This document shows, in pieces, positions 4,934-23,724 of a stretch of 23,769 bases of DNA. How positions within the stretch are numbered: the stretch's first letter is position 1; each line of letters starts with the position of its first letter. The notes beneath the pieces are model-generated. The model had not been told where the DNA came from. It did no database searches and worked only from the letters and a program-made list of their open reading frames with translations. A program made the position numbers and the translations under genes. The DNA is from a virus. The DNA lies in IMG/VR virus record IMGVR_UViG_3300027977_001253, positions 1-23,769 of that record; one strand, 5' to 3'.

Positions 4934-4942
4934 TATATTTAT
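4934..4942 (+). promoter_or_regulatory. Late promoter-like box TATATTTAT before the nucleotidyltransferase gene
   Basis: The box ends 5 bases before the ATG at 4948, in a 25-bp gap. If it is a -7/-10 element the mRNA would be leaderless or nearly so. Confidence 0.5.
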
Positions 4943-8562: not shown

Positions 8563-9930
8563 ATGTCAAATAATTTAGAAAGATTAATAAGAAAAATTGT
8601 TAAGGAAGCACCTATGGATTTTGGTGATTACCAGGAAAGACCCGACCCAAAAACCCAACGAAAAATCGAAGACCCTCAAGGAATTTACGCAAAAAATAGA
8701 GCGTTTAGAGGTGGTGTTAGTGACGTAGAAAAAATGACTAGTAAAAGATTTAAAGAAGTTGTTGATTACGTTAAAAGATATTTTGGTACTCAACAAAATA
8801 TTACAAACCCACAAGTTAAGTTAGCAATTCAAAGGGAACAGATGAGAGCCGTACAACAAGCTATGAGAACCGAGCCTAGATACAGAGAACAATTAAGAGA
8901 TTTGGCAGTTGAGATAGCAGCCAAAGAAGATGGGTTTTTATCTTATGATTTAACTATGGAAGATGCAATTAATCAAGGAATTATTGCTAAAAAAAGACGT
9001 AATGGTGGAGGAATTGTGTATGAATTTGATTTTGTTAACGTACTTACATTTTTAGGTGAACAACCAATTAATCCAAATGAATTTCAAATTAAACCAGAAG
9101 AAAAAAAGAAATTAGAATTACCTAAAAACTTTTCTTTTGATATTGATGAATTAACTCCCGAAGAACAAAGAGAGTTAGAAATTGAAAAAAGAAATGTTAT
9201 AAATGCGATGGTGCAAGGGGCTGGTAAAAGAGGTCAATTTGCATACCAAGCATATAAAGATAGATTAGATGCAATAGACCCATCATTATATGAATTATAT
9301 AATAAAATAATGGGAGCAAATGATTTGATGTATTTCACAGATGAAGACCTTATTGAAGCATTGGGTGGTAATGCCGCTGGTTCTGCAGGTAAGGGGGGTG
9401 ATGATCCTGATGATGACGATGATGAAGAACAAGGAGGAGAACAAGAGAATGAGGGTAACGGTAATGATATGTATACTTCAAATGGACTAATATTCCCAAT
9501 CCTGCTTCACGAACTATCTAAGATGTTCCCAATGATACAAACAAGAGAACAATGGAGAGATATGGACCCTGAGATGGCAATGGATGTTATGGGTCAAACA
9601 GATACAATGGAGAATGAACCAATGAATTTTCGTGTTGGGGCTGAACTTATAAGAAAAATGAGAATGTTATTACCGGATGAATTAATTTTAGATAATGAGG
9701 GTAAAATTTACATACCTTTCTTTTATAAGATACTATATGGGATTCCAGCTGAAGAATTTTTAAAAGATGTTATTGCTAATGTTGTTTCAGAAAATCCATC
9801 TGATAATGAAAAGGCTAAAAGAAGATTTAACGATATTTTAGGACAAGCAAAAGAAATGTATAGAAAAACGTACGGTGATGATGAAGATGATGATTACGAT
9901 AATGAAGACGATGACGATGGTGTATACTAA
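8563..9930 (+). CDS. Conserved virion-associated protein, unknown function
   Basis: A 455-residue protein, 3 bp after the previous gene. It opens with an amphipathic helix (LERLIRKIVKEA) containing a possible V-K-E/A protease site. Residues about 60-280 look folded and helical (VINAMVQGAGKRGQFAYQAY is a distinctive block). A Gly/Asp/Glu-rich linker follows (about 285-305), then a second helical domain containing FPILLHELSKMFP, and a very acidic tail ending in a poly-Asp/Glu tract. I recall similar proteins in marine and freshwater T4-like phages without a role. HEL is not followed by the second His needed for a zincin. It ends the coupled block closed by the hairpin at 9968. Confidence 0.6.
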   Translation: MSNNLERLIRKIVKEAPMDFGDYQERPDPKTQRKIEDPQGIYAKNRAFRGGVSDVEKMTSKRFKEVVDYVKRYFGTQQNITNPQVKLAIQREQMRAVQQAMRTEPRYREQLRDLAVEIAAKEDGFLSYDLTMEDAINQGIIAKKRRNGGGIVYEFDFVNVLTFLGEQPINPNEFQIKPEEKKKLELPKNFSFDIDELTPEEQRELEIEKRNVINAMVQGAGKRGQFAYQAYKDRLDAIDPSLYELYNKIMGANDLMYFTDEDLIEALGGNAAGSAGKGGDDPDDDDDEEQGGEQENEGNGNDMYTSNGLIFPILLHELSKMFPMIQTREQWRDMDPEMAMDVMGQTDTMENEPMNFRVGAELIRKMRMLLPDELILDNEGKIYIPFFYKILYGIPAEEFLKDVIANVVSENPSDNEKAKRRFNDILGQAKEMYRKTYGDDEDDDYDNEDDDDGVY

Positions 9931-18252: not shown

Positions 18253-20109
18253 ATGGGAGCATTATTAGAATCAGGTCTTGTAGGTAACATCGGGTTAAAA
18301 CACCTTAAAGTTATCAAAGAAGACACTATAAACAAATGGGACAGATTAGGGTTCCTTGAAGGTCTTAAAGGCCACCTAAAAGAAAACGTAGCACAGTTAT
18401 ATGAAAACCAAGCTTCTTTCTTGATTAACGAAGCAACTTCAGAAGGTTCTAACGGAGCATTTGAAACAGTTGTTTTCCCTATCGTAAGAAGAGTTTTCTC
18501 TAAATTGTTGGCTAACGACATCGTATCTGTACAAGCAATGAACTTACCTATTGGTAAATTGTTCTTCTTTGTACCTAAAATCCAAGGTTACCAATCGGCA
18601 GGTGCCACTGGTGGTGAACATTATGCACCAATCGGTTCTCCAACTGCGGTTAACAGTGGTACTAACGATCCTAACCAAGGTTATGGTACGGCATCAGTAA
18701 CAAACTTCCCTTACGCAAAAAATCTTTATGATTTATTTTATGAAGGTGGTGAAGCTGGTTTAGATCCTCCAGGATTATTTGATTACTCTAAAGGTCAGTG
18801 GACTGCGGTTACTGCTCTTACAGACATCCAAGTATGGTCTAGTGGTAATCTAGTTGATTCGGCAGCACCAACAGGTAATATCAGAAAAATGATTTTGAAA
18901 ATTTCAGGATTCAGAACTTCAGGAGCTGGTAAATTAGTAGGTCCTGATGGTAATGAAATGGATTCAGAAACATTCTTATCTGACCTTAAAATTATTGCAA
19001 ATCAACCAACTTTATCCGCATCTACAACACCTTGTAATGTACTTGCAGACGAAAACGGTACTCCAATTCCATTGTTATTTAGAGTTGTTACTCAACAATA
19101 TGGTAAAGGAATTGTTCAATACGGTAATCAATCGGCAACGGTTTTTGCAACAAATGGAAGTAACGCAGGTAATGGTGGTTCTTACTACGATATCTGTGAT
19201 GCTAACGGTTATATCTACGTTGAGGTAGATTTATCTTGTCCTGTATGTGCTGACTGTAACTCAACATCTTTAGATGGTTACACAGGTACTACAATTTATT
19301 CAGGAGCATCAGGTGATTCATTTACTTCAGTATACAGAACTTACAAAAATATGGAGTTTGAAGACCAAATTGGTGAAGTTTCTTTTGATTTAGAATCAGT
19401 AACTGTTTCTGTATCTGAAAGAAAATTAAGAGCACAATGGTCTCCAGAAATGGCACAAGACGTTGCAGCATTCCACAACATTGACGCTGAAGCTGAATTG
19501 ACGGCTTTATTGTCAGAACAAGTGGCTGCTGAAATTGACCGTGAAATTTTACGTGACTTAAGAAAAGGAGCGGCTTGGAACCTACGTTGGGATTACAACG
19601 GATGGAGAAGAATTGCTCAAACTACATCTTATACTCAAAAAGATTGGAATCAAACTTTAATTACGGCAATCAATCAGTTGTCAGCACAAATCCACAAATC
19701 TACTTTAAGAGGTGGAGCTAACTGGATTGTTGTTTCTTCTGAGGTTTCTGCAATATTTGATGATTTAGAATACTTCCACGTATCTAACGCATCTCCTGAA
19801 CAAGACCAATACAACATGGGTATTGAAAGAGTTGGTACTCTTGCAGGACGTTACCAAGTTTACCGTGACCCTTACTTCCCACCAAACACAGTTTTGTTAG
19901 GACATAAAGGAACATCATTGTTAGACACAGGTTACATCTACGCACCGTACGTACCTCTACAATTAACACCTACAATGTATAACCCGTTCAACTTTACTCC
20001 GATTAAAGGAATAATGACGAGATACGCGAAAAAAATGGTAAATAATCGCTTTTACGGAAGAATTACTGTTGATGGTGTTAGAACATTCGATTTAAGAGAA
20101 TTGAGATAA
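18253..20109 (+). CDS. Major capsid protein (T4 gp23-like)
   Basis: The 618-residue capsid protein has the gp23 hallmarks: an N-terminal helical propeptide (KWDRLGFLEGLKG), the FPIVRRVFSKLLANDIVSVQAMNLPIG block (T4: MVRRAIPNLIAFDICGVQPM), KNMEFEDQIGEVSFDLE with the following RKLRAQWSPEMAQDVAAFHNID segment, the TLAGRYQVYRDPYFP block, and YNPFNFTPIKGIMTRYAKKM near the end. A predicted maturation site I-N-E/A follows residue 60, close to the T4 cleavage after residue 65. It is about 100 residues longer than T4 gp23 (521), mainly from an insertion at about 120-350 that includes a CPVCADC triple-Cys motif (C329, C332, C335). Codon use shows more C-ending codons than neighbours, fitting high expression. 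It has no promoter-like box and probably depends on the scaffold transcript. Confidence 0.95.
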   Translation: MGALLESGLVGNIGLKHLKVIKEDTINKWDRLGFLEGLKGHLKENVAQLYENQASFLINEATSEGSNGAFETVVFPIVRRVFSKLLANDIVSVQAMNLPIGKLFFFVPKIQGYQSAGATGGEHYAPIGSPTAVNSGTNDPNQGYGTASVTNFPYAKNLYDLFYEGGEAGLDPPGLFDYSKGQWTAVTALTDIQVWSSGNLVDSAAPTGNIRKMILKISGFRTSGAGKLVGPDGNEMDSETFLSDLKIIANQPTLSASTTPCNVLADENGTPIPLLFRVVTQQYGKGIVQYGNQSATVFATNGSNAGNGGSYYDICDANGYIYVEVDLSCPVCADCNSTSLDGYTGTTIYSGASGDSFTSVYRTYKNMEFEDQIGEVSFDLESVTVSVSERKLRAQWSPEMAQDVAAFHNIDAEAELTALLSEQVAAEIDREILRDLRKGAAWNLRWDYNGWRRIAQTTSYTQKDWNQTLITAINQLSAQIHKSTLRGGANWIVVSSEVSAIFDDLEYFHVSNASPEQDQYNMGIERVGTLAGRYQVYRDPYFPPNTVLLGHKGTSLLDTGYIYAPYVPLQLTPTMYNPFNFTPIKGIMTRYAKKMVNNRFYGRITVDGVRTFDLRELR

Positions 20110-20200: not shown

Positions 20201-20209
20201 TATATTTAT
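20201..20209 (+). promoter_or_regulatory. Late promoter-like box TATATTTAT before the HNH gene
   Basis: The box includes the first two bases of the ATG at 20208, which argues that the real start is the next in-frame ATG at 20214, 4 bases after the box, matching the spacing at 4948, 11806 and 23119. Confidence 0.55.
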
Positions 20210-20213
20210 GTAT

Positions 20214-20894
20214 ATGAGAAAAATAGAATTAACAGAATTGCAAGTTAAGGAAATAATAAAGTTATACACTGAAGATTTATTAGGTTCCCCCACTATTAGT
20301 GAAAAATTAAAAATACATAAAACAATTATCTTAAATACTCTTAGGGATAATGGTATTGTCCTTGGACCATCAGGTAGAAGAAATATTGGTGGTAAAAAAG
20401 TTGCCGATAAAAAATGGAGAGATTCTAATAAAGAGTATATGTCTAATAAATCCAAAACTTGGTATGAACAAAACAAAGAACATCGTAAAGAATACCTTAA
20501 AGAATACCGTGAAAAAAATATAGATAATATTAGAAAAACAAAACGAGATTACGAAAGAAATCGTAAAGCAAGAGACCCCATCTATAAACTAATATCTAAT
20601 TTCAGGACCGCAATATACCAGGTATTAAAGGAGAGTAATGTAGAAAAGAACAATCATTACTTTGACATACTACAATACACACCTGAAGAACTAATAACAC
20701 ATTTAGAATTACAATTCAAGGACGATATGAGTTGGGATAACTATGGAATTTGGCATGTTGACCATAAGTTACCTATAACATCATTTGATATACAGGAGAT
20801 GGGAGACAAAGAATTTATGTCTTGTTGGGCCTTAGATAACCTCCAACCAATGTGGGGTATTGAGAATATACGTAAATCAAATAAAACCGAATAA
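20214..20894 (+). CDS. HNH homing-type endonuclease
   Basis: A 226-residue protein. The N-terminal 50 residues form a helix-turn-helix-like DNA-reading segment (EIIKLYTEDLLGSPTISEKL then a recognition-like helix). Residues about 65-125 are a Lys/Arg/Tyr-rich charged helix, typical of DNA-binding linkers. The C-terminal HNH domain has WHVDHKLPI (180-188), CWALDNLQPMW (204-214) and a final EN-x-x-K, giving the His, Asn and His/Asn residues of the fold. The position, immediately after the essential capsid gene and closed by its own terminator, fits a free-standing homing endonuclease. The first ATG at 20208 lies in the promoter-like box and is not favoured. There is no sign of an intron in the capsid gene. 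Confidence 0.85.
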   Translation: MRKIELTELQVKEIIKLYTEDLLGSPTISEKLKIHKTIILNTLRDNGIVLGPSGRRNIGGKKVADKKWRDSNKEYMSNKSKTWYEQNKEHRKEYLKEYREKNIDNIRKTKRDYERNRKARDPIYKLISNFRTAIYQVLKESNVEKNNHYFDILQYTPEELITHLELQFKDDMSWDNYGIWHVDHKLPITSFDIQEMGDKEFMSCWALDNLQPMWGIENIRKSNKTE

Positions 20895-20895
20895 G

Positions 20896-20927
20896 AAAAA
20901 AGGAGATAAGTAATTGTCTCCTTTTTT
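20896..20927. terminator. Terminator after the HNH gene
   Basis: A6-GGAGA pairs with TCTCC-T6, extended inward by A-T pairs around a short loop. It lies right after the HNH stop and can work in both directions. Confidence 0.85.
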
Positions 20928-20988: not shown

Positions 20989-21007
20989 TAATTTTGTAAG
21001 TATTTAT
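20989..21007 (+). promoter_or_regulatory. Promoter-like region with TAATTTTG and AGTATTTAT before the surface protein gene
   Basis: TAATTTTG (20989-20996) fits the Bacteroidota -7 consensus TAnnTTTG, and AGTATTTAT (20999-21007) is the phage-type box ending 17 bases before the ATG at 21025. Having both could mean host-type and phage-type control of the same gene. A TTGACA at 20979-20984 is too close to serve as a -33/-35 element for either. Confidence 0.4.
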
Positions 21008-21024
21008 TAATAAAATGATCACCT

Positions 21025-23106
21025 ATGAAAAATTCACTATTTATTTTTTTTGTAATACTAACAAGTTTTTTTGTTAGATCACAAGTAAGTTCTTATACGT
21101 TTGGAACATCAACCGGAACATACACACCAATAGTTGGTGGGGTCAATTATAATAACTTTACAAGTTGGTCAAATACCAACTTTTTAGATGATAATAATTC
21201 GGCGGTATTAGAATCAATCGGATTTAACTTTGTTTATAATGGAACAACGTATACCCAATTTGGGGTTAATGCTAATGGATTTATATCACTGGGGTCATTA
21301 CCAACTAGTAGTTATTATCCATTATCAATAGGTACGTCAAATAATGTAATATCGGCAATGGGTGTTGATTTAATAGGACGTGGGTCGTTATTAGCAAATA
21401 GAACAACTGGGAGTGCGGTAATTACAATTACAGGTGGAGACATATCTCTAATATCGGTTGGGGATAAGGTAAGTGGTACGGGTATTCCTGCAGGCGCCAC
21501 AGTATTATCTAAAACCGCAACTACAGTTACAATTTCTGCAAATGCAACAACTTCGGGTACCGGATTTCATTTTAAATTTAGTAGGTCAACATTTGGTATT
21601 AGATTTCAAACAATAGGAACATCACCAAATAGGACATTAGTGGTCCAATGGACAGGATGGCAAAGATATACCACATCAAGGTTTTTTGGTGAATTATATA
21701 ATTTTCAAATAAAATTAAACGAAACAACAAATACTATCGTGTTTGTTTATAATATATTAGGTCCTGGTTTAGGTCCTGACAGTGCTACGCCAACAACATT
21801 TCAGATAGGTTTAAGAGGAACCTCAAATACCAATTTTAATAATAGAACAACTACAACAAATTGGTCGTCAACTACGGCTGGAACATTAAACAGTTCAACA
21901 GTTACATTATCAAGTACGGTTAAACCAACTGCAGGATTAACATATACGTGGACACCGCCCGTTATTCCCGTTTGTTCAGGAACACCAAATCCAGGAAACA
22001 CACTTTCTTCTTCATTAACATCACCACCAAACGGAACCGTAAATCTTTCACTACAAAACACCACAACTGGTACAGGGGTAACTTATGTGTGGGAGAGTAG
22101 TACAGATAATTCAACATGGACAACCTTTGGTTCCTCATCGGCTACACAAACATCACCACCAATCACATCACCTACTTGGTTTAGATCTACCGTTACTTGT
22201 TCAGGAAATAGTGGGATATCAACACCTATTCAAATAACATTATCATATTGTACATATAATATAACTAATAATGATCCTACAGGTATTACTTCTGTAACGT
22301 TTGGTACAATATCAAATACAAGTATTGGTGGTCCATCCTACAGTGATTTTACCACACAATCAACTACCGTAGAACAGGGTGGAATTTATCAATTAAATGT
22401 TAATGTGAACACAGATGGTAATTGGACGGTAAATACAAAGGTTTGGATAGATTGGAATCAAAATTACATATTTGAAGTAGAAGAAGAGTATTCTTTAGGT
22501 AGTGCGTTAAACACTACTAATGGAATTACATCATTATCCCCTTTAAATATAACTGTACCAACTGGAGCAACTTTAGGAGAAACTAGAATGAGAATAGTAT
22601 CAGTTGAAGCCAGTGATCCTGCACCACTAGCGTGCGGTACACAACTTTACGGCGAAGCTGAGGATTATAAACTAACAATAACACCACCAACAGGACTTCC
22701 TGTAGAGTTACTATATTTTGATGGTATTACATATCCTTTGTTTAACTCACTTAAGTGGTCAACCGCATCGGAACATAACTCAGATTATTTTGAGGTAGAG
22801 AGAAGTGTTGATGGTGAAATATGGAAGGTTGTTGGTAGTAAATTGGCTTCAGGTAATAGTACGGTAGTTATTAATTATAGTTATTTAGATTCTTTTGATG
22901 ATTTGGTAATACATTATTATAGATTAAAACAGGTTGATTATGATGGTCAATATAAGGTGTACGGACCTATTGGTTTAGATAATACAAAATCAGTTAAAAA
23001 AGTTGTTAAATACATTAACATTTTAGGTCAAGAAGTAAGTTCAGAAACAAACGGGCTTATTTTTGAGGTATATGAAGACGGAACTATGAAAAAGATTATT
23101 AGGTGA
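21025..23106 (+). CDS. Exported host-like surface protein: signal peptide, GEVED domain, T9SS-like C-terminus
   Basis: A 693-residue protein with an N-terminal signal peptide (Lys2, hydrophobic 5-16, predicted cleavage near FFVRSQ, typical of flavobacteria). Residues about 23-310 form a beta-sandwich of the kind found in Bacteroidota exported proteins (YTFGTSTGTY, NANGFISLG), interrupted at about 121-185 by a module with VGDKVSGTGIPAGATV. Residues 316-408 look Ig/PKD-like with paired Cys. Residues about 410-552 match GEVED (KVWIDWNQNYIFE, then GEAEDYKLTI at 543-552). Residues 558-650 contain LPVELLYF, SLKWSTASEHNSDYFEVERS and YYRLKQVDYDGQY, the usual lead-in to type IX secretion sorting domains. 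The tail (about 656-693: YINILGQEV, then GLIFEVYEDGT) resembles the end of a sorting domain but lacks the YPNP entry strand. Secretion to the host surface is likely; a superinfection-blocking or adhesion role is inference. Confidence 0.8.
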   Translation: MKNSLFIFFVILTSFFVRSQVSSYTFGTSTGTYTPIVGGVNYNNFTSWSNTNFLDDNNSAVLESIGFNFVYNGTTYTQFGVNANGFISLGSLPTSSYYPLSIGTSNNVISAMGVDLIGRGSLLANRTTGSAVITITGGDISLISVGDKVSGTGIPAGATVLSKTATTVTISANATTSGTGFHFKFSRSTFGIRFQTIGTSPNRTLVVQWTGWQRYTTSRFFGELYNFQIKLNETTNTIVFVYNILGPGLGPDSATPTTFQIGLRGTSNTNFNNRTTTTNWSSTTAGTLNSSTVTLSSTVKPTAGLTYTWTPPVIPVCSGTPNPGNTLSSSLTSPPNGTVNLSLQNTTTGTGVTYVWESSTDNSTWTTFGSSSATQTSPPITSPTWFRSTVTCSGNSGISTPIQITLSYCTYNITNNDPTGITSVTFGTISNTSIGGPSYSDFTTQSTTVEQGGIYQLNVNVNTDGNWTVNTKVWIDWNQNYIFEVEEEYSLGSALNTTNGITSLSPLNITVPTGATLGETRMRIVSVEASDPAPLACGTQLYGEAEDYKLTITPPTGLPVELLYFDGITYPLFNSLKWSTASEHNSDYFEVERSVDGEIWKVVGSKLASGNSTVVINYSYLDSFDDLVIHYYRLKQVDYDGQYKVYGPIGLDNTKSVKKVVKYINILGQEVSSETNGLIFEVYEDGTMKKIIR

Positions 23107-23118: not shown

Positions 23119-23724
23119 ATGTTAGACGATATTATAAAAAAAGTATTAAATGAAATTTCCACTTCTGTAAGTGCGGGGGGATATAACGGACCAATAGCGA
23201 TAGGATTAAAAAAATGGAAAAAATCAGAATTAGGACCTTTTACTGAGTTTGCTGATACGGAATTTAATCACGAGAAAAAACAAAAAACATTAAAAAATAA
23301 CGTTAAGGGTTATGTTGGTCATTGGGAAAAAAATGAAGATGGTTCTTACGAATTAGATAATTACGACGCACACACAATTAATGAAGATTTAGCTGTTTGG
23401 TTTGGAACAAAGAAGAAACCAAAAGGTTCTAAACAACCAAAAGGTCCGTGGGTTAATATATGTAGAAAAGTTGATGGTAAACATCCCCCTTGTGGTAGAC
23501 CTGACGCCGATAGTAAAGGTTACCCTAAATGTCGGGCAGTGGGAGTTGCGGGTAAAATGTCAGATTCAGCAAAAAAATCAGCGTGTCAACAAAAAAGAAC
23601 TGCAGAGAAAAAAGACACACAAACAGGTAAAGGTCAAAAACCCGTAATGACTTCATATAAAACAAAAAAGACCCAAAATGAGTCTTTAAATATTATAATT
23701 AGAAATATTTTATCGGGTCTTTAA
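23119..23724 (+). CDS. Cys-rich small-domain protein (DUF5872-like)
   Basis: A 201-residue basic protein. The N-terminus is an amphipathic helix with a possible L-N-E site (IIKKVLNEIS). Residues about 95-152 hold a four-Cys block: WVNICRKVDGKHPPCGR, GYPKCRA and AGKMSDSAKKSACQQKR, a pattern I associate with a small domain of unknown function (DUF5872 from memory) found in large viruses and phages. The Cys spacing would allow zinc binding. It is followed by a Lys/Gln/Thr-rich tail and a C-terminal amphipathic helix (ESLNIIIRNILSGL). Such terminal helices recur on other proteins in this window, suggesting a virion-packaged protein. Function is unknown. It overlaps a possible convergent minus-strand frame by 15 bp. 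Confidence 0.65.
   Translation: MLDDIIKKVLNEISTSVSAGGYNGPIAIGLKKWKKSELGPFTEFADTEFNHEKKQKTLKNNVKGYVGHWEKNEDGSYELDNYDAHTINEDLAVWFGTKKKPKGSKQPKGPWVNICRKVDGKHPPCGRPDADSKGYPKCRAVGVAGKMSDSAKKSACQQKRTAEKKDTQTGKGQKPVMTSYKTKKTQNESLNIIIRNILSGL

Follow-up and report, generated by a model that had tools for sequence, protein, structure and literature searches.

Phages of Bacteroidota are known to encode cargo of the host type IX secretion system (T9SS). The Cryophage carries such genes, which were suggested to serve in competition or to mediate superinfection exclusion (Bellas et al. 2020, PMC7468147), and crAss-like cluster 2 phages encode proteins with T9SS sorting domains near their head genes (PMC6949934). 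The known C-terminal sorting domains (CTDs) of types A, B and C have been reviewed (PMC10202324), and a near-invariant lysine close to the C-terminus is a feature of type A (PMC10994853). Here, we analysed the window, which comprises all 23,769 bases of an IMG/VR record and in which an earlier note had recognised a phage-borne gene whose adhesin-like product appeared to be exported and to have a T9SS-like end. This reading is supported by our analysis. We propose that the gene probably encodes an exchangeable cargo of the structural-gene class, which would be exported by Sec and then, via a short C-terminal tail, by the T9SS, and which would act in an adhesin-like manner at the cell surface.

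The window encodes a T4-type terminase, a gp20 portal protein, an S77 prohead protease and a gp23 capsid protein, which constitute the structural module of a T4-like virus with a putative Bacteroidota host. Among cultured phages with a Bacteroidota host, the closest capsid relatives come from the Flavobacterium immuto phages, with about 40% identity over the aligned parts. All features described below lie on the plus strand. The gp23-type major capsid protein (18253..20109; Pfam Gp23, E=1.7e-72) is the upstream anchor of the slot that holds the cargo gene (21025..23106), and a conserved phage gene (23119..23724; phrog_23735, E=1e-4) forms its downstream border. In the window, an endonuclease VII/HNH-like, probably homing endonuclease (20208..20894; phrog_1035, E=3e-15) sits between the capsid and cargo genes. 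A separate observation concerns two N-terminal peptides, MKKLYFLDEEEKNRILNLHESATKRQYLxE and IIKKVLxEA(T/S), which recur in the window at 1663-2418, 8563-9930 and 23119-23724 and in many ORFs of related loci. They resemble capsid-targeting sequences with the (L/I)xE cut site of the T4 prohead protease, and the ORFs that bear them possibly represent a set of internal head proteins.

The cargo gene starts with ATG and encodes a 693 amino acid long protein, as delineated by its ORF, domain matches and related loci. The signal peptide claimed in the earlier note is plain in the sequence (aa 1-19, 21025..21081; MKNSLFIFFVILTSFFVRS followed by Q, with predicted cleavage before Q20) and is kept in 19 of 19 full-length relatives; export by Sec is very likely. 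The mature protein begins with a constant N-terminal ectodomain (aa 20-312, 21082..21960) that is assigned to no known family, followed by an exchangeable middle region (aa 313-553, 21961..22683). The latter contains the GEVED domain that had been noted before (aa 471-550, 22435..22674), which matches PF20009 well above the cut-off (E=2.9e-19; 70.1 versus 24.4 bits). A lectin-like N-terminal domain and an Ig/PKD-like domain, which had been proposed as well, could not be substantiated: Pfam holds no match for either, and the predicted full-length structure is poor outside the last 135 residues. Foldseek matches to this full-length model were mostly long, poor alignments, and a sequence search of solved structures with the full family profile gave no matches. 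The model of residues 555-693 has a mean pLDDT of 91.7. The segment LPVELL...ASE...YYRLKQVD, read in the earlier note as the lead-in to a T9SS sorting domain, is real, but it belongs to a predicted fibronectin type III (FN3) domain (aa 558-652, 22696..22980), with a best VIA Z of 11.3 and an rmsd of 2.5 over 86 residues to FN3 domains; this fold comparison reached the FN3 domain only and is silent on the tail, and the lack of a T9SS CTD among its listed matches carries no weight. The remaining C-terminus is a short, sorting-like tail of about 38 residues with three predicted strands (aa 656-693, 22990..23103), defined by the model and by a tail family profile.

The shortened sorting-domain-like tail described in the earlier note is real and represents a recurrent family. 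A profile built on the last ~40 residues retrieved 65 distinct phage proteins, and the distance from the end of the match to the C-terminus is 0-7 residues in all 65; a near-terminal lysine is kept in the tail alignments. By a simple heuristic test for a hydrophobic core, a signal peptide is present in 61 of the 63 tail proteins with closed 5' ends, compared to 26 of 706 other ORFs on the same contigs (p=1e-66). In 41 of the 65 loci, a major capsid protein gene precedes the tail gene at a distance of up to 3.5 kb, and in 42 of the 65 a phrog_23735-type gene follows within 2.5 kb. The tail is also found outside the slot, in phages of up to 314 kb in our scan and in the 635-kb uncultured phage record LR745206, in which the full FN3 domain and tail are present. 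Among the cultured phages in INPHARED, no full-length relative of the cargo protein was found; the matches were uncultured phage records only and were confined to the C-terminal FN3/tail region. The ectodomains on tail-bearing phage proteins are very diverse and include CUB, GEVED, galactose-binding and Ig domains, with CUB in 13, GEVED in 10, GBD_T9SS_assoc in 6 and F5/8C in 5 of 40 proteins. As judged from these matches, the domain types correspond to those of surface proteins, and a surface-binding function is likely because of them.

At 21 distinct loci, the stop codon of a short-tail cargo gene coincides with, or lies only a few bases from, the start of a gene for an apparently multi-pass membrane protein of about 153 amino acids (e.g. 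L131:12438-12914, L184:7325-7780 and L292:6115-6570). This protein is absent from the window, was encountered solely beside cargo genes and matches no Pfam or PHROG family; it may be a functional partner of the cargo.

Bacterial genomes carry the same tail. In five Flavobacteriales genomes reached via the genome scan (G015-G018 and G022; e.g. loci L227-L246), 42, 28, 21, 19 and 12 copies are present, and the cellular carriers are secreted esterases, peptidases, nucleases and propeller proteins. With two false regex matches excluded, a signal peptide is present in every retrieved cellular tail protein whose start is intact. Profile alignment places phage and cellular tails in one family (hhalign 97%, E=5e-11). 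Two other Bacteroidota genomes contain 52 and 150 classical T9SS domains and no short tail, and therefore the tail profile does not merely detect the classical domain.

We estimate that the T9SS is quite probably the second export step. The short-tail genomes encode 41-150 TIGR04183 proteins each, and 41-76 in the five Flavobacteriales with 12-42 tails. The clearest indication comes from two phage records of 142.7 and 229 kb (L305 and L306), in which five consecutive signal-peptide proteins precede the usual downstream gene. Of these five, the first two score above NCBI's TIGR04183 cut-off (46.5 and 41.5 bits), while the last two bear the short tail. The first (L305:1-1260) has subtilase-like S8 active-site motifs, judged by eye, and its TIGR04183 domain at the end; the second contains SprB repeats and also matches PF18962 (E=1.3e-13). 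Of all observations, this array argues most strongly for the delivery of T9SS-type cargo from the slot, by association rather than proof. Exported subtilases also precede cargo genes in the capsid-adjacent slot at L280 (2451-3878), L285, L290 and L304; S8 active-site motifs occur in this group, and PF00082 matched the L280 protein, the one tested, with E=2e-31.

Several observations would also fit a different assignment, in which the tail is a tag for a non-T9SS route or a signal for periplasmic or outer-membrane retention. The affiliation with curated T9SS sorting-domain families that the earlier note had envisaged was not borne out: in an NCBIfam scan to E=10, no curated T9SS model of type A, B or C matched the tail of the window protein, TIGR04183 and PF18962 gave no match over cut-off in this protein or in 40 phage tail proteins, and no public Pfam or NCBIfam model recognised the tail in the phage or cellular proteins scanned. 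The tail forms a separate short family. Its similarity to classical CTDs is weak; in a profile comparison with 41 of them it aligned in register, at a level that is not significant (1-3%, P 0.006-0.016). SprA is present in six of seven short-tail genomes tested, including four of the five Flavobacteriales with 12-42 tails, but its co-occurrence with the tail is not discriminating in a class-wide sample (18 of 18 tail-bearing versus 268 of 277 other genomes), and the phylum sample contained two tail-bearing genomes only. Against a non-T9SS route, the tail-bearing genomes also encode classical CTD proteins by the dozen, TIGR04183 proteins share the phage slot with the tail, and both the register of the D-x-LG-x-E/V motif and the near-terminal lysine agree with the second half of type A CTDs. 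We therefore regard such a route or retention signal as unlikely and retain the T9SS assignment.

A scan of viral contigs revealed relatives of the cargo gene at 37 other loci. Wherever the contig reaches far enough, each lies immediately 3' of gp23, and the endonuclease is optional, being missing from most of these loci. Pairs of phages mostly share 82-92% identity over the N-terminal 312 residues of the cargo protein, compared to about 72-80% for the capsid proteins. The cargo gene is under strong purifying selection, with a dN/dS of about 0.12 for the N-terminal part, 0.24 for the C-terminal module and 0.21 for the capsid protein; the median pS among its relatives is 0.42. Its modularity is evident at L015-L026, where the middle region is replaced by an unrelated sequence of ~360 amino acids while both ends are kept, and in other phages, e.g. 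at L030, L031, L126, L132, L139, L166, L184 and L190, where wholly different ectodomains with their own signal peptides are joined to the same C-terminal module.

These data also bear on the alternative raised in the earlier note that the gene is host DNA, recently acquired next to a homing endonuclease and without phage function. The adjoining endonuclease and the host-like domain content would agree with such an origin, but the gene occupies the same position in dozens of phages, mostly without the endonuclease, and both the purifying selection and the conserved leader described below argue against it. Moreover, a genome search with the C-terminal 139 amino acids did not retrieve a host gene of the same architecture, and the median pS speaks against a very recent spread. 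We consider this origin extremely improbable; a recent capture beside the endonuclease is rejected in view of the fixed position, the conserved leader and the low dN/dS.

A survey that started from the capsid gene alone covered 57 loci in which the downstream sequence extends for 2 kb or more. The script flagged a signal-peptide cargo in 19 of these, of which 16 were left after manual removal of three ORFs located beyond other genes; in the other loci, the slot is empty or is taken by endonucleases or other genes. In seven related contigs (L032-L038), the gene has decayed; 80 codons and an out-of-frame FEVYEDGTMKKIIR are left, a pattern that an internal deletion would produce. Because it is decayed in these contigs and absent from most relatives defined by the capsid gene, the cargo gene is dispensable. 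Decay, patchy presence and conservation together characterise it as an accessory gene, though one that has long been maintained.

The leader of the cargo gene is conserved as well. An intrinsic-terminator-like hairpin with a T-run (20896..20927; -16.3 kcal/mol, z=-6.6) divides the cargo gene from the upstream genes; the hairpin and TCTCCTTTTTT are kept in 13 of 14 loci and the T-run in all 14. It is followed by the promoter-like motif TATTTATTA (21001..21009), which is common to the structural genes and conserved 5' of the relatives. The core TATTTAT occurs in 12 intergenic copies compared to 2.2 in shuffled sequences, and 10 of 17 plus-strand copies are located 7-48 nt 5' of a start codon (binomial p=5e-11). 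This strongly enriched and strand-biased motif precedes the terminase, portal, protease and other structural genes, with TATTTAT(A/T) copies e.g. at 4936, 10004, 11795, 12156, 13994, 15471, 16581, 21001 and 23107, and is a candidate late promoter. Based on the conserved leader and the motif in common with the structural genes, we infer that the cargo gene is expressed with the late genes.

Such a location directly 3' of gp23 and a promoter-like motif in common with structural genes might also be expected of a virion component, for example a Hoc-like head decoration of Ig-like domains that is encoded beside the capsid protein. In addition, the cultured Flavobacterium phage immuto (NC_055915, L193:10955-12595) encodes an Ig-repeat-like protein near the same place, two genes after gp23, which has neither signal peptide nor tail. 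Hoc-like head decorations are cytoplasmic and bind to assembled heads. The near-universal cleavable signal peptide, however, would take the cargo out of the cytoplasm, where heads assemble, the same tail is borne by secreted bacterial proteins, and the cargo protein has no structural PHROG match. A virion component is accordingly very unlikely, and an exported cargo is the preferred reading.

We suggest the following scenario for the window's copy of this exchangeable gene of T4-like Bacteroidota phages. The protein would be made alongside the structural, late-class genes, and its signal peptide would direct it to the host Sec pathway and thereby across the inner membrane. The short tail would then mark it for sorting, with the host T9SS as the most likely route, by which the protein would reach the cell surface or be released. 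There, the adhesin-like ectodomain could bind surface polymers or receptors and alter the encounters of the infected cell or its debris with other phages, particles and cells. Because of the structural-gene timing, receptor masking on dying cells and debris or altered adhesion of infected cells would be favoured over early superinfection exclusion. With somewhat less than even confidence, we further propose that the tail is a distinct, not yet modelled class of outer-membrane (T9SS) sorting signal, and that the exchangeable capsid-side slot of T4-like phages, in many cases accompanied by genes for a subtilase and a coupled membrane protein, remodels the surface of the infected cell. If so, this class would be common to Flavobacteriales and their large phages, and lytic-type phages would systematically display their own proteins via the host outer-membrane secretion machine. 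It would also offer a short sorting tag, amenable to testing, which goes unnoticed in current annotation although a single genome can have dozens of proteins that bear it.

Like the Cryophage, the phages described here are Bacteroidota phages with genes for proteins that end in a known or probable T9SS sorting signal, and these genes are exchangeable between variants. In the Cryophage (PMC7468147), which measures 76 kb, classical type A domains are attached to enzymes and to a PA14 protein, whereas the present genes belong to T4-like phages, carry a short tail that is not modelled and occupy a fixed slot after gp23. The proximity to head genes is shared with crAss-like cluster 2 phages, in which the context is one of BACON domains and recognised T9SS domains in a phage group unrelated to that of the window. 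The cargo protein has a true GEVED domain like other GEVED secreted proteins (PF20009), but it is phage-encoded and its GEVED domain is exchangeable between relatives. With type A CTDs (TIGR04183/PF18962), the tail shares its C-terminal position, a beta-rich character, the Sec signal peptide, the near-end lysine and the many copies per genome. It differs by its length of ~38 instead of ~75-100 residues, the lack of the PNP strand and the lack of matching models; the type A CTD is a seven-stranded, Ig-like domain of ~100 residues, while the tail has three predicted strands and lies beside an FN3 domain. The literature searched contains no description of the short tail, of its use by T4-like phages or of a capsid-adjacent slot. 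Thus, phage-encoded T9SS cargo as such is already known, and the novelty relative to this literature lies in the short tag, in its occurrence in T4-like phages and in the slot beside the capsid gene.
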